Source: Merdibacter massiliensis (GTDB lineage Bacteria > Bacillota_I > Bacilli_A > Erysipelotrichales > Erysipelotrichaceae). From it: a stretch of DNA of 64,000 nucleotides. The notes below the pieces were generated by a model. The model saw nothing but the letters and a program-made list of their open reading frames with translations, had not been told where the DNA came from and searched no databases. Below are positions 19,395 to 42,167 of the stretch, piece after piece. A program made the translations under genes and the position numbers. The DNA lies in the NCBI RefSeq assembly GCF_900155395.1, contig NZ_LT699727.1, forward strand, positions 124,001-188,000. Direction: 5' to 3'. Numbering within the stretch: position 1 is the stretch's first letter; the number at the start of each line of letters is the position of its first letter.

Positions 19395-20151
19395 CGATTA
19401 AAACCTCCTTCTGTTTCTTGTTATCAGAGAAAAATCCCAAAGCTGCAATGACCAAGCCTGCCAACGCAACGCCAAATACAGGAATCTGTAGATAAGCAGC
19501 TAACAAGAAACCTGCTAACAAATACGGAGACAGTTCTTTTGTCACGATCATTTTTGCCAACATTGCAAAACCAACTGCCGGCAAGATACCTGCAGCTACA
19601 TCCATGCCATGGGTAATAAATTGTGGAATCATAGCTAACACATCTTCAATGACAGGGACTCCTAAATAGAAAGCGATACCTACCACAACCGACAATACGA
19701 TCTTATTGCCGATACCAGCAAACCGTGCGATCCATTCTACTTTTTTATAATCTCCTAAAGCTGCATATTTATCTGCTAAATGTGTTGCCCAGGTTAGTAA
19801 AAACATCATCTGCAGATTATCAAACAGAAGAACCAAAGTTGCTACCGGTACCGCCAATGCTACCGCTGCACCTACTTCTTGGCCGGTCAAAATCACAAAA
19901 GATGTACCAATAATCGCACCGGAAGTAATATCAGGAGGATTGCTCGCACCGATAGGGACCGCACCTAAGAAAATCAATTCCAAAGAAGCACCAACCATGA
20001 TACCTGTTTTTAGATCCCCCAGTACGAGACCCACTAAGGTGGCTACTACAATAGGGCGATTATTCATCGTTGATCCCCAATAACTATGCATGTAACCAAC
20101 AAATGCTACCAATGTGATCAATAATGACTGCATCAATAAATTTTCATTCAT
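19378..20151 (-). CDS. PTS mannose/fructose/sorbose-family IIC subunit
   Basis: A 257-residue membrane permease. The natural start is ATG 20151 (MNENLLMQSLLITLVAFVGY). A GLVLGDLKTGIMVGASLELIFLG segment is typical of IIC. Its own ribosome site has been split by the IS110 copy that begins seven bases upstream. The remaining leader before the ATG is IS sequence with no good SD, although an in-frame start inside the IS (ATG 20190, adding 13 residues MLRQGTFVSYKKY) exists. Expression may be lowered or depend on that fused start. Confidence 0.92.
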   Translation of the reverse strand: MNENLLMQSLLITLVAFVGYMHSYWGSTMNNRPIVVATLVGLVLGDLKTGIMVGASLELIFLGAVPIGASNPPDITSGAIIGTSFVILTGQEVGAAVALAVPVATLVLLFDNLQMMFLLTWATHLADKYAALGDYKKVEWIARFAGIGNKIVLSVVVGIAFYLGVPVIEDVLAMIPQFITHGMDVAAGILPAVGFAMLAKMIVTKELSPYLLAGFLLAAYLQIPVFGVALAGLVIAALGFFSDNKKQKEVLIDDNEF

Positions 20152-20229
20152 ATATTTCTTGTATGATACAAATGTACCTTGTCGTAGCATTCATATCACT
20201 TTTCCTTTCCAACCTTTTATATAATGTAG

Positions 20230-20370
20230 ATAGAACCTTAGTACTCTTATATATTTATGTGGTTTATCTACTCAAAGGAGAGTGAATCTATAGGATCTTA
20301 TTACATCTGTTTATAGCTGGATAGGTTTTGATATCTTCATGTCACGCAAGTTTACACTAGTAAGACCACT
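20230..20370 (+). ncRNA. Candidate bridge RNA of the IS110 element, copy 1 (approximate limits)
   Basis: IS110 relatives express a bridge RNA from the noncoding left end, with a target loop followed by a donor loop. Here, in that order: TATATATTTAT (20,248-20,258), resembling the left target half CATATATTT; CAAAGGAG (20,273-20,280), complementary to the right target half CTCCTTTG; TATAGCTGG (20,312-20,320), matching the element's right end CATAGCTGG; and TCACGCAAG (20,342-20,350), pairing with the element's left end CTTGTATGA with one wobble and one mismatch. The RNA itself and its borders are inferred. Confidence 0.55.
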
Positions 20371-20402
20371 ATAGAATGACAAGGTTCTAGAAAGGTGGTC
20401 TT
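20362..20402 (+). promoter_or_regulatory. Hairpin hiding the transposase ribosome binding site
   Basis: AAGACCAC (20,362-20,369) pairs with GTGGTCTT (20,395-20,402). The 3' arm contains the GGTGG Shine-Dalgarno of the transposase (ATG 20,406). Transcripts reading in from outside would keep this hairpin, so translation of the transposase should be held down. The same hairpin is present in copy 2 at 40,777-40,817. Confidence 0.6.
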
Positions 20403-20405
20403 TTT

Positions 20406-21575
20406 ATGTCTAAACTGTTTTGTGGTATCGACGTTGCTAAATTTGAACACGTCGCAAGTATCTATGATCCTTCTACTGGTGAAATGATTCTTGATTCACT
20501 TCATTTTGATAATAACGATAAAGGTTTTAAAACATTATTATCTTCTCTTTCTAAATTGAACAAACGTTGCGAAATACTGATTGGTTTTGAATCAACCGGT
20601 CACTATCATCAGGTCTTATTCAATTTTCTAACTTCCAAGAAATATAAGTGTTTTTTAATCAACCCTTATATGACCAGTAAGTTTAGATCTATTTCTTTGC
20701 GTGATGCCAAGAATGACGATATCGATTCCAGAGCCATCGCAAAGTTCTTATCGTTTGAATATAAATCTTTGATTGAACAAGAATTCTTAAGCAGCGAATT
20801 GAAAGAGCTGGTTAATCAAAGACATTTCTTAATAATCGAGTCTTCAAAAATGAAAATCAAGCTAAAATCATATCTCGATAGAACATTTCCTGAACTTGAA
20901 TCCATTGTTGATATCAACACAGCTGCTATTCGAGCTATTTTAAAGGAGTATCCAACCGCTAATTCTATATCTGAAGCTAGAATAGATAAACTAAAGAATC
21001 TAGCTAAAAAGGCTTCTAAAGGTAAATATTCTCTATCAAAAGTTGAAGCTGTTAAAGAAGCAGCTAAGACTTCAATCGGAATTCACTCTTTAAGCATTGG
21101 TTTGAATATCATTCAATGTATTGAAACTTTAGAACTAAAAGAAAGGCAGATTGATAGAATCGAAAAAGAAATCAAAGAACATCCTACTGTGCTTGATTCT
21201 CCTTTACATCAGTTAATTGGGATTAACGATATAGAAATCGGTTATATCATGTCTGCCATTATTAGTATAACTCGTTTTAGCTCTCCAGAAAAGATAGTAG
21301 CTTATGCAGGTTTAGATCCAAAGGTTAGACAATCCGGTACATGGAAGGCAAATACGACTAGAATGTCCAAAAGAGGAAACAAACTATTAAGATATGCTTT
21401 GATATGGACAGCTTTCAATATGACCAGAAGACCTGGACCTATGAAAAACTATTTTGCGCTAAAGAAGTCTCAAGGAAAGTCTCACTACAACGCCTTAGGA
21501 CACTGTGCAACAAAACTTTGTCGTTACATTTTCTGGATACTTAATCATCCTGATTCAAACTTTGAATACCAATAA
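20406..21575 (+). CDS. IS110 family transposase (copy 1)
   Basis: A 389-residue protein. The N-terminal RuvC-like DEDD domain starts KLFCGIDVAKFEHVASIYD (first Asp) and includes LIGFESTGHYHQVLFNFL (Glu) and LRDAKNDDIDSRAIAKF (the Asp pair). The C-terminal Transposase_20 domain has the catalytic serine region, YAGLDPKVRQSGTWKAN, then RMSKRGNKLLRYAL. It recombines DNA under bridge-RNA guidance, using a CT core. Intact and identical to copy 2, so recently active. It is transcribed against the PTS genes that flank it. Confidence 0.97.
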   Translation: MSKLFCGIDVAKFEHVASIYDPSTGEMILDSLHFDNNDKGFKTLLSSLSKLNKRCEILIGFESTGHYHQVLFNFLTSKKYKCFLINPYMTSKFRSISLRDAKNDDIDSRAIAKFLSFEYKSLIEQEFLSSELKELVNQRHFLIIESSKMKIKLKSYLDRTFPELESIVDINTAAIRAILKEYPTANSISEARIDKLKNLAKKASKGKYSLSKVEAVKEAAKTSIGIHSLSIGLNIIQCIETLELKERQIDRIEKEIKEHPTVLDSPLHQLIGINDIEIGYIMSAIISITRFSSPEKIVAYAGLDPKVRQSGTWKANTTRMSKRGNKLLRYALIWTAFNMTRRPGPMKNYFALKKSQGKSHYNALGHCATKLCRYIFWILNHPDSNFEYQ

Positions 21576-21750
21576 TTTCAAACAATATTTTCATAAAACA
21601 AACTTTTTTATATAAATATATCATTTATAGCTATTCGTTATTTAAGACTACTTATATAACTGAGCTTTCGTATACCCTAAATATACTTTATTGAATTTTG
21701 ACAATTCTTATCTTTTTTTACTTGACAGATTCATAGCTGGTCTCCTTTTC

Positions 21751-39809: not shown

Positions 39810-40565
39810 TCATGAATTCCGAAATTCTTGATAATCTGCTGTATGCAATATGGCATTGGCATGATCGATCAATTCCTGAGAAGGAGGATCGATTCCTTCT
39901 AACGGATAAGGAATGCCCAGCTCTTTCCATTTATAGACCCCTAACGTATGATATGGAAGTACCTCAAATCGTTTTACATTGTGCAAGGAACGCACAAAGG
40001 TGTCTAATTGATACAGATCTTCATCTTGATCATTTCTTTGCGGTACTAATACATGACGGATCCAGACTGGTTTATTGATATCCGATAGAAAACGTGCACA
40101 TTCCAAAATATTAGCATTGGATTTTCCTGTTAATTGGATATGTTTTTCATTGTCCATTACTTTAATATCCAGCAAAACAAGATCTGTTACTTGCATCAGC
40201 TGTTGAAATTTAGAAAAAAATGGTTCGTCTTTGGTAAATGGTTGACCACAGGTGTCGATCACCGTATGCACGCCTTCTTTTTTTGCCAATGTAAACAATT
40301 CTAACAAAAAATCGATCTGCAGCAGAGGTTCGCCGCCGCTCACGGTGATGCCTCCTTTATCGCGCCAGTAACTTTTATAGCGTAAAGCCTTCTTTAATAC
40401 TGTCTGTGCACTCTCCGTTCCTTCTTTTCTCTGCCAAGTATCCGCATTATGACAGAACTGACAACGCATCTGACATCCTTGCAAAAAGATCACATAGCGT
40501 ATGCCCGGTCCATCCACCGATCCAAAAGTTTCAATTGAATGCAAGGCGCCTTTCTTGTTTTCCAT
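39810..40565 (-). CDS. pflA: Pyruvate formate-lyase activating enzyme
   Basis: A 251-residue radical-SAM enzyme. ATG 40,565 opens MENKKGALHSIETFGSVDGPG, and the 4Fe-4S motif CQMRCQFC follows; GGITVSGGEPLLQ is the SAM-binding GGE motif. It makes the glycyl radical on PflB. IS110 copy 2 begins eight bases before this ATG and has removed its Shine-Dalgarno; only an alternative TTG in the IS extends the frame upstream. The promoter and terminator in front (42,168) suggest it was once read weakly from pflB. Confidence 0.93.
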   Translation of the reverse strand: MENKKGALHSIETFGSVDGPGIRYVIFLQGCQMRCQFCHNADTWQRKEGTESAQTVLKKALRYKSYWRDKGGITVSGGEPLLQIDFLLELFTLAKKEGVHTVIDTCGQPFTKDEPFFSKFQQLMQVTDLVLLDIKVMDNEKHIQLTGKSNANILECARFLSDINKPVWIRHVLVPQRNDQDEDLYQLDTFVRSLHNVKRFEVLPYHTLGVYKWKELGIPYPLEGIDPPSQELIDHANAILHTADYQEFRNS

Positions 40566-40644
40566 ATAAATCCTTGTATGATACAAATGTACCTTGTCGT
40601 AGCATTCATATCACTTTTCCTTTCCAACCTTTTATATAATGTAG

Positions 40645-40785
40645 ATAGAACCTTAGTACTCTTATATATTTATGTGGTTTATCTACTCAAAGGAGAGTGA
40701 ATCTATAGGATCTTATTACATCTGTTTATAGCTGGATAGGTTTTGATATCTTCATGTCACGCAAGTTTACACTAGTAAGACCACT
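40645..40785 (+). ncRNA. Candidate bridge RNA of the IS110 element, copy 2 (approximate limits)
   Basis: Identical to the copy 1 left end. The CAAAGGAG guide (40,688-40,695) is fully complementary over 8 bases to this target (CTCCTTTG), against 7 of 8 for copy 1. Existence and borders are inferred from position and pairing only. Confidence 0.55.
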
Positions 40786-40820
40786 ATAGAATGACAAGGT
40801 TCTAGAAAGGTGGTCTTTTT

Positions 40821-41990
40821 ATGTCTAAACTGTTTTGTGGTATCGACGTTGCTAAATTTGAACACGTCGCAAGTATCTATGATCCTTCTACTGGTGAAAT
40901 GATTCTTGATTCACTTCATTTTGATAATAACGATAAAGGTTTTAAAACATTATTATCTTCTCTTTCTAAATTGAACAAACGTTGCGAAATACTGATTGGT
41001 TTTGAATCAACCGGTCACTATCATCAGGTCTTATTCAATTTTCTAACTTCCAAGAAATATAAGTGTTTTTTAATCAACCCTTATATGACCAGTAAGTTTA
41101 GATCTATTTCTTTGCGTGATGCCAAGAATGACGATATCGATTCCAGAGCCATCGCAAAGTTCTTATCGTTTGAATATAAATCTTTGATTGAACAAGAATT
41201 CTTAAGCAGCGAATTGAAAGAGCTGGTTAATCAAAGACATTTCTTAATAATCGAGTCTTCAAAAATGAAAATCAAGCTAAAATCATATCTCGATAGAACA
41301 TTTCCTGAACTTGAATCCATTGTTGATATCAACACAGCTGCTATTCGAGCTATTTTAAAGGAGTATCCAACCGCTAATTCTATATCTGAAGCTAGAATAG
41401 ATAAACTAAAGAATCTAGCTAAAAAGGCTTCTAAAGGTAAATATTCTCTATCAAAAGTTGAAGCTGTTAAAGAAGCAGCTAAGACTTCAATCGGAATTCA
41501 CTCTTTAAGCATTGGTTTGAATATCATTCAATGTATTGAAACTTTAGAACTAAAAGAAAGGCAGATTGATAGAATCGAAAAAGAAATCAAAGAACATCCT
41601 ACTGTGCTTGATTCTCCTTTACATCAGTTAATTGGGATTAACGATATAGAAATCGGTTATATCATGTCTGCCATTATTAGTATAACTCGTTTTAGCTCTC
41701 CAGAAAAGATAGTAGCTTATGCAGGTTTAGATCCAAAGGTTAGACAATCCGGTACATGGAAGGCAAATACGACTAGAATGTCCAAAAGAGGAAACAAACT
41801 ATTAAGATATGCTTTGATATGGACAGCTTTCAATATGACCAGAAGACCTGGACCTATGAAAAACTATTTTGCGCTAAAGAAGTCTCAAGGAAAGTCTCAC
41901 TACAACGCCTTAGGACACTGTGCAACAAAACTTTGTCGTTACATTTTCTGGATACTTAATCATCCTGATTCAAACTTTGAATACCAATAA
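40821..41990 (+). CDS. IS110 family transposase (copy 2)
   Basis: The 389-residue product is identical to that of 20,406-21,575, with the DEDD RuvC-like domain and the Transposase_20 domain intact. The same SD-hiding hairpin precedes it. It is transcribed opposite to pflB and pflA. Confidence 0.97.
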   Translation: MSKLFCGIDVAKFEHVASIYDPSTGEMILDSLHFDNNDKGFKTLLSSLSKLNKRCEILIGFESTGHYHQVLFNFLTSKKYKCFLINPYMTSKFRSISLRDAKNDDIDSRAIAKFLSFEYKSLIEQEFLSSELKELVNQRHFLIIESSKMKIKLKSYLDRTFPELESIVDINTAAIRAILKEYPTANSISEARIDKLKNLAKKASKGKYSLSKVEAVKEAAKTSIGIHSLSIGLNIIQCIETLELKERQIDRIEKEIKEHPTVLDSPLHQLIGINDIEIGYIMSAIISITRFSSPEKIVAYAGLDPKVRQSGTWKANTTRMSKRGNKLLRYALIWTAFNMTRRPGPMKNYFALKKSQGKSHYNALGHCATKLCRYIFWILNHPDSNFEYQ

Positions 41991-42167
41991 TTTCAAACAA
42001 TATTTTCATAAAACAAACTTTTTTATATAAATATATCATTTATAGCTATTCGTTATTTAAGACTACTTATATAACTGAGCTTTCGTATACCCTAAATATA
42101 CTTTATTGAATTTTGACAATTCTTATCTTTTTTTACTTGACAGATTCATAGCTGGTCTCCTTTGGAT

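Follow-up and report, generated by a model that had tools for sequence, protein, structure and literature searches.

An IS110 element of Merdibacter massiliensis with predicted bridge-RNA guides that match the Shine-Dalgarno and start-codon sequences at its insertion sites

Introduction

The described systems closest to the element analysed here belong to, or resemble, the bridge-RNA branch of the IS110 family. IS621 has a left-end RNA of ~177 nt, and IS110 circles carry a promoter formed at the circle junction, as described in Durrant 2024 (PMC11208160). For IS1111, matches of the seekRNA to both target strands are reported to select the site (Siddiquee 2024, PMC11187229). IS900, an IS110 family element of Mycobacterium avium subsp. 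paratuberculosis, has the published MEME target motif CATGNNNNNNTCTCCTT (PMC8141618), and a title cited in that paper (Doran 1997) reads 'IS900 targets translation initiation signals...'. The present analysis concerns an IS110 element that occurs twice in a 64,000-nucleotide stretch of the M. massiliensis genome (contig NZ_LT699727.1, positions 124,001 to 188,000; the window). An initial annotation of this DNA had proposed that the left end of the element carries guides aimed at Shine-Dalgarno (SD) sequences.

Results

The element belongs to the IS110 family by both domains of its transposase, DEDD_Tnp_IS110 (PF01548; 118.4 bits, cut-off 29) and Transposase_20 (PF02371; 62.3 bits, cut-off 21.3). 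The two window copies are identical over the 1582 bp between their CT cores, which lie at 20158-20159 and 21742-21743 (copy 1) and at 40573-40574 and 42157-42158 (copy 2). A whole-genome search (2.47 Mb, 23 contigs) found five copies with 100% identity, all with the junction layout ...CT/TGTATGATACAA ... CATAGCTGGT/CTCCTTT. Every copy sits at an AAAGGAG SD with a CT core, as had been claimed for the two in the window, in one orientation antisense to the gene, and an ATG on the gene strand lies 6-8 nt from the core (6-7 nt in the window). Each copy therefore separates the SD from the ATG, antisense to the gene. The five ATGs open reading frames (ORFs) of 257, 211, 184, 467 and 251 aa, and the genes concerned encode a PTS sorbose-type IIC protein, a radical SAM protein, a flavin reductase, a methyladenine glycosylase and an ATP synthase alpha/beta subunit. 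The features of the window are as follows.

20149..20151, minus strand: ATG start of the PTS sorbose-type IIC gene, 6 nt from the core; the ORF runs on to 19378
20158..20159, no strand: left core CT of copy 1, single in orthologous unbroken sites of other species
20160..21741, plus strand: IS110 element copy 1, 1582 bp between cores
20162..20167, plus strand: TATGAT, -10 half of the predicted circle-junction promoter (sequence match)
20226..20390, plus strand: predicted bridge RNA, ends approximate
about 20232-20237/20383-20388, plus strand: closing helix of the predicted bridge RNA, followed by the target loop
20248..20258, plus strand: putative left target guide (LTG) TATATATTTAT, whose 5' part follows the bases adjoining the start codon
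20259..20271, plus strand: hairpin GTGG-TTTAT-CTAC between the LTG and the right target guide, with double changes in relatives L038 and L063
20272..20280, plus strand: putative right target guide (RTG) TCAAAGGAG, i.e. (T)CAAAGGAG, complement of the target CTCCTTTGA and itself an SD sequence
20288-20293/20369-20374, plus strand: donor-loop helix of the predicted bridge RNA
20312..20322, plus strand: putative left donor guide (LDG) TATAGCTGGAT, matching the right end CATAGCTGGT
20342..20350, plus strand: putative right donor guide (RDG) TCACGCAAG, pairing with the left end CTTG
20406..21575, plus strand: IS110 transposase/recombinase, 389 aa (PF01548 and PF02371)
21722..21727, plus strand: TTGACA, -35 half of the predicted circle-junction promoter (sequence match)
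21732..21741, plus strand: right donor end (LD) CATAGCTGGT
21742..21748, minus strand: right core CT and CCTTT, the displaced SD (AAAGGAG) of the PTS IIC gene
40563..40565, minus strand: ATG of the radical SAM gene, which we take to be activase-like, 7 nt from the core; ORF to 39810
40575..42156, plus strand: IS110 element copy 2, identical to copy 1
40663-40673, 40687-40695, 40727-40737 and 40757-40765, plus strand: LTG, RTG, LDG and RDG of copy 2
40821-41990, plus strand: transposase gene of copy 2
42157..42163, minus strand: right core CT and CCTTT, the displaced SD of the radical SAM gene

In two genomes of the same genus, the SD of the second gene is intact and reads AAGGAGGAAATATATG or AAAGGAGGAAACAATTATG; one of the two also has the first gene unbroken, with AAAAGAGGGAACAGATATG. 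These orthologous sites have a single CT, filled sites a CT on both sides, which is the short core without further target duplication of IS110 elements. With a DNA identity of 71-78%, the unbroken sites belong to other species and do not represent the exact state before insertion. In 859,046 bases of the M. massiliensis genome, AAAGGAG occurs 267 times on both strands, including occurrences within and next to the copies of the element; 107 of them have a start codon 5-13 nt on (ATG in 94) with an ORF of at least 60 aa. The context ATATG is found at only 25 of the 267 sites, yet at all five insertions, for which our own arithmetic gives (25/267)^5, or about 7e-6, if AAAGGAG alone were the rule.

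The guide and end sequences named in the initial annotation were found where it had placed them. In the otherwise conserved alignment of left ends, two stretches are hypervariable: the LTG, and the RTG bases before its last AG. We compared RTGs with targets in 33 elements at 48 sites, using shuffled guides as the null. At the non-core RTG positions 3-6, 3.58 of 4 bases match the target, compared with 2.00 for shuffled guides (0/20,000); after merging identical guides (27 remaining) the values are 3.48 and 1.83 (0/20,000). The correct register gives a match of 0.93 and slid registers at most 0.52, and all six RTG bases (core plus four) are matched at 35 of 48 sites. Five elements that had not entered the first such test gave 3.4 of 4 against 2.0 (315/20,000). 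Guide and target have changed together in L046 (RTG AACGGAG, target CTCCGTT), L043 (TTTAGAAAG, CTTTCTAAA) and L036 (AGGGAG, CTCCCT). The complementarity of the right guide to the right target half thus extends to elements whose guides differ.

Omitted from the RTG test were L047 (gene broken, right end degraded), L067 (GT at the core), L053 (lacking a left end), L039, L040 and L048 (same contigs as L036-L038), eight plasmid copies and some copies listed among the class- and phylum-level relatives. L054, L065, L066, L070, L075-L077, L082, L086, L094-L096 and L098 were left out for a missing side or an unclear register, and L038, L045, L051 and L056, which lack a right flank, were kept for the LTG test only.

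The LTG had been annotated as the left target half. The description holds for copy 1 in one register (ATATATTT), whereas in copy 2 the guide matches chiefly the (C/T)ATAT close to the start codon, so the label is only partly correct. In 15 elements, the LTG matches the 3 nt beside CAT at 1.89 of 3 bases, compared with 1.23 after shuffling (3/10,000; the left target of L046 was entered one C short, which leaves this measure unaffected), and its best-offset match is reached in 23/10,000 shuffles. The LTG starts with UAU in 10 of 16 aligned left-end sequences, and pairing with the ATG strand is possible via one G-U. With the RTG following the SD side and the LTG the bases next to the start codon, the target loop seems to recognise both signals jointly.

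Folding 14 left ends jointly gave a consensus with a closing helix, donor-loop helices and a target-loop helix that carries the LTG-RTG hairpin. Of 446 cells, 97.8% are paired, against at most 49.9% in slid versions, and seven pairs are changed on both sides, compared with 2.3 in shuffled alignments (0/500). Double changes preserve the LTG-RTG hairpin in L038 (GCGG/CTGC) and L063 (ATGG/CCAT); by a simple search, this hairpin is missing or replaced by another in several distant elements. Several single folds show an alternative helix, GTAGA/TCTAC, around the LTG; it forms only with registers shifted from one sequence to the next, and the consensus fold was preferred. The left end is thus predicted to encode a structured RNA with the target loop followed by the donor loop, the order originally proposed.

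The donor guides covary with the element ends in the way expected of bridge RNAs, as the target guides do, which bears out the donor matches first noted in the window. In 20 elements, the longest word shared by the right end and the element's own RNA averages 7.15, compared with 5.56 for the RNA of other elements (0/20,000); for the left end the values are 5.15 and 4.74 (2/20,000). Joining the right and left ends of the window element produces the promoter-like TTGACA-18-TATGAT. Loose patterns find such boxes with a spacer of 17-18 in 16 of the 20 elements; two have a spacer of 20 and two lack one box.

On the minus strand of 21708-21748, the captured SD and the right end read AAAGGAG-ACCAGCT-ATG, a recreated initiation site. 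The donor half CATAGCTGGT resembles the target half CAT-N7. We treat this right-end start codon as a by-product of alike donor and target halves, because in the window it opens a frame of only 8 codons after the captured SD (AAAGGAGACCAGCTATG) and because the right-end CAT is missing, by eye, in several other clades.

Relatives of the transposase were found in 18 of 272 genomes of the family and 19 of 315 of the order (both E <= 1e-60), in 22 of 395 genomes drawn from the class (E <= 1e-50) and in 15 of 295 drawn from the phylum (E <= 1e-45), the four sets overlapping and the genome analysed here being counted; one scan of viral contigs found no relative. Insertion just before start codons, as initially predicted, recurs in the closest clade, where 18 of 19 readable left junctions (5 own, 14 relatives) have an ATG 5-9 nt from the core that opens an ORF of at least 83 aa, some of these cut by the locus end; the exception is L044. 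The genes entered in relatives include those for ribosome recycling factor (L038), a class I (C) tRNA synthetase (L056) and a semialdehyde dehydrogenase (L036). Among 20 class-level loci, CAT shortly precedes the left end in all 18 that are readable (by eye, without an ORF test); L066 and L070 have no readable left end. The six G314 copies (36% identity) all have CTTTCT on the right. Eight of 81 plasmid records (Lactobacillales) were read, with left junctions placed by eye; seven of these junctions are about 25 nt or less from an annotated start codon, and an SD-like GGAG is retained on the gene side in L151, L152, L154, L156 and L158. The Lactococcus plasmid copies L155 and L158 have very similar left ends, with RTGs AAAAAAG and CAAAAAG and targets CTTTTTTCA and CTTTTTGAT; these guides seem to have drifted from the SD while still matching their own sites.

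Two further IS110 families were seen in the same genome. Twenty copies (L016-L035) of a second, distant IS110-type family (28-29% identity) were examined. The left junction directly follows CAT-NNN in all 18 readable copies (L026 and L030 were not read), and an ORF of at least 80 aa is opened in 16 of these, with 50 aa in L025 and 8 in L031. This family supplies TTCCTCC, a GGAGG SD 5 nt before the ATG (calculated pairing -12.6 kcal/mol each), and has an SD-like sequence past its right end. Its two subgroups differ after CAT, mostly TTT or ATA (CATTTT, CATATA), and in the one copy read per subgroup the matching left-end stretch is TATTTTTATAAG (L016) or TATATATATAAG (L027). A third IS110 family (L012, L013), with a broken reading frame, likewise lies at CAT...CTTTC sites; its two members are one RTG base apart (TTTCGAAAG, TTTGGAAAG).

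Finally, we estimated the effect of insertion on the host gene. The calculated anti-SD pairing drops from a mean of -10.2 to -3.8 kcal/mol at 13 sites; random 24-mers drawn from the window (n = 400) have a mean of -2.0 kcal/mol. A host SD that reaches past the core keeps partial pairing in L046 (-10.3), L004 (-6.0), L056 (-5.8) and L038 (-4.1). Translation of the host gene is likely to be reduced, and unevenly so, because the calculated pairing falls and is partly kept where the SD continues past the core. This unevenness may be why essential-looking genes tolerate insertion. L004, L038 and L056 lie directly before the genes for ATP synthase alpha/beta, ribosome recycling factor and class I (C) tRNA synthetase, and insertions at such places suggest that translation survives somehow. 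On the minus strand of 20151-20190, the left end of copy 1 facing the host gene holds ATGAATG, with 13 codons fused to the PTS IIC frame. ATGAATG might be a substitute start for this gene; its left-end ATG is missing, by eye, in L036.

Discussion

We consider it highly probable that the element inserts into translation-initiation sites under bridge-RNA guidance. The sites, their orientation, the core, the covariation of guides with targets and donor ends and the conserved fold can all be read from the sequences. In the proposed mechanism, excision to a circle would join the right and left ends and create the promoter TTGACA-18-TATGAT, from which the left-end bridge RNA and the transposase would be transcribed. 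In the presumed ribonucleoprotein (RNP), the donor loop (LDG, RDG) would bind the joined ends of the element and the target loop a translation-initiation site. The RTG (AAAGGAG, itself an SD) would bind CTCCTTT, which lies on the non-gene strand, and the UAUAU of the LTG would base-pair with CATAT on the start-codon side. The two DNAs would then recombine at the common CT, leaving the element in antisense orientation to the gene with the SD on one side and the ATG on the other; lower translation of the host gene is the outcome we infer.

The five copies in M. massiliensis have one guide and one target, and cannot by themselves separate RNA specificity from recognition of CTCCTTT by the transposase protein alone, with the left-end matches incidental and the region a regulatory leader. 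Such protein-only recognition is already disfavoured by covariation, and we regard it as very unlikely: in nine elements with transposases 61-100% identical to that of the window, guide and target agree at 5.07 of 7 bases against 3.47 for shuffled guides (0/20,000), in a single register. Purging could also shape the sites, if the element inserted widely and survived only at SD regions, the guide being of little account. About 40% of AAAGGAG sites are SD-like anyway (107/267), and selection would act against gene-disrupting insertions. However, purging leaves unexplained the fixed 7-bp target with core and the ATATG at all five sites, as well as the covariation of guide and target, and insertion at an SD is itself likely to be harmful, judging from the calculated loss of anti-SD pairing; as the main cause of the pattern it seems to us very unlikely. 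Hardly credible, finally, is the idea that the left-end AAAGGAG is the ribosome-binding site of a leader peptide and resembles the target by coincidence. GTG-AAT-CTA-TAG does come after AAAGGAGA in the window, but in relatives this position is occupied by AGAAAG, ACGGAG or AGGGAG, and each of these agrees with its own target; the variable bases lie in a loop between conserved helices.

Several observations weigh against guided insertion as we propose it. Purging of insertions within genes could contribute to the SD enrichment. Of the 48 sites, 13 are mismatched at one or more of the six RTG bases, and RTG positions 7-9 add nothing, being near chance (3012/20,000). Guide registers beyond the closest clade, including those of the five added elements, were set by eye, and the guide shuffles ignore relatedness among elements. 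The LTG lacks the CT core letters, and its signal is weaker over six bases from CAT (158/10,000) or when anchored at the core (306/10,000). As for the RNA, the initial annotation had called for a two-loop fold; the consensus provides one, but the single window sequence folds no better than shuffles (z -0.63; 52/200 as stable) and all Rfam matches are far under gathering scores. Further pair types, one of five fold measures, fall within shuffles (354/500), and one alignment served both to build the structure and to score it. Among insertion sites, L044 sits at CTTGTATTT where its guide predicts CTCCTAAAA, and its ATG opens 13 codons only; in G314, by eye, only 3 of 6 copies have a left-hand CAT no further than about 14 nt away; and the L155 element (Lactococcus lactis) is not beside a start codon. 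The L044 site reads ATTTGTTATT-CT-TGTATTTTGG, its right half being more like the element's own left end than its RTG.

Beyond the window element, we lean towards a wider reading in which the translation-initiation signal has become the universal target of a broad IS110 branch. Its bridge RNAs would read start codon and SD, of which every SD-using genome offers very many sites that the host cannot lose; guides would drift among SD variants (GGAG, AGAAAG, ACGGAG) in step with the sites; and some lineages would spare the host gene by bringing or keeping a left-end SD. If guided insertion is true, two separate facts are joined, bridge-RNA guidance in IS110 and the landing of IS900 in translation-initiation signals, and the old target rule of IS900 gains a testable explanation. 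A guide that spells the SD addresses a target the host can hardly mutate away, which suggests how the element spreads across species. Work on programmable recombinases would find in the natural guide-target pairs a collection of already retargeted bridge RNAs. A specific consequence is also predicted for placing the element between SD and ATG: one gene should be translated less. Selection to mitigate this loss is suggested by the second family.

With the IS621/IS110 bridge-RNA elements (PMC11208160), the present element shares a two-domain recombinase, a left-end RNA with target loop then donor loop, a CT core and a circle-junction promoter, the last predicted here from sequence. Unlike those, which are described at REP elements, its target is an SD with start codon, its RTG match extends ~4 nt past the core and its LTG lacks the core letters. 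As in IS1111 seekRNA elements (PMC11187229), the inferred RNA matches both target strands; there, the RNA region is described as usually downstream of the transposase gene with the match order reversed, whereas here the guides lie upstream in IS110 order. With IS900, compared through its published motif (PMC8141618), the element shares the target layout of CAT, about 8 nt, CT and CCTT, and all five of its own copies have CAT, 6-9 nt and CT-CCTT before genes. IS900 is reported to have a long antisense ORF, hed (PMC8141618), whereas the ORF list of the window contains no antisense ORF of at least 80 aa within the element. Because the published IS900 motif has the same layout, there is less reason to speak of a new kind of target. 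Among the literature matches listed (titles and abstract starts, with few subscription journals or preprints), no paper linked a bridge RNA to SD targeting. We class the element as a bridge-RNA IS110 member whose kind of target IS900 had in principle already revealed. Novelty seems to lie in the RNA explanation, a guide-encoded reading of SD and start codon with guides that change with SD variants, and in the genome's second family, which lands next to the ATG and brings its own SD.
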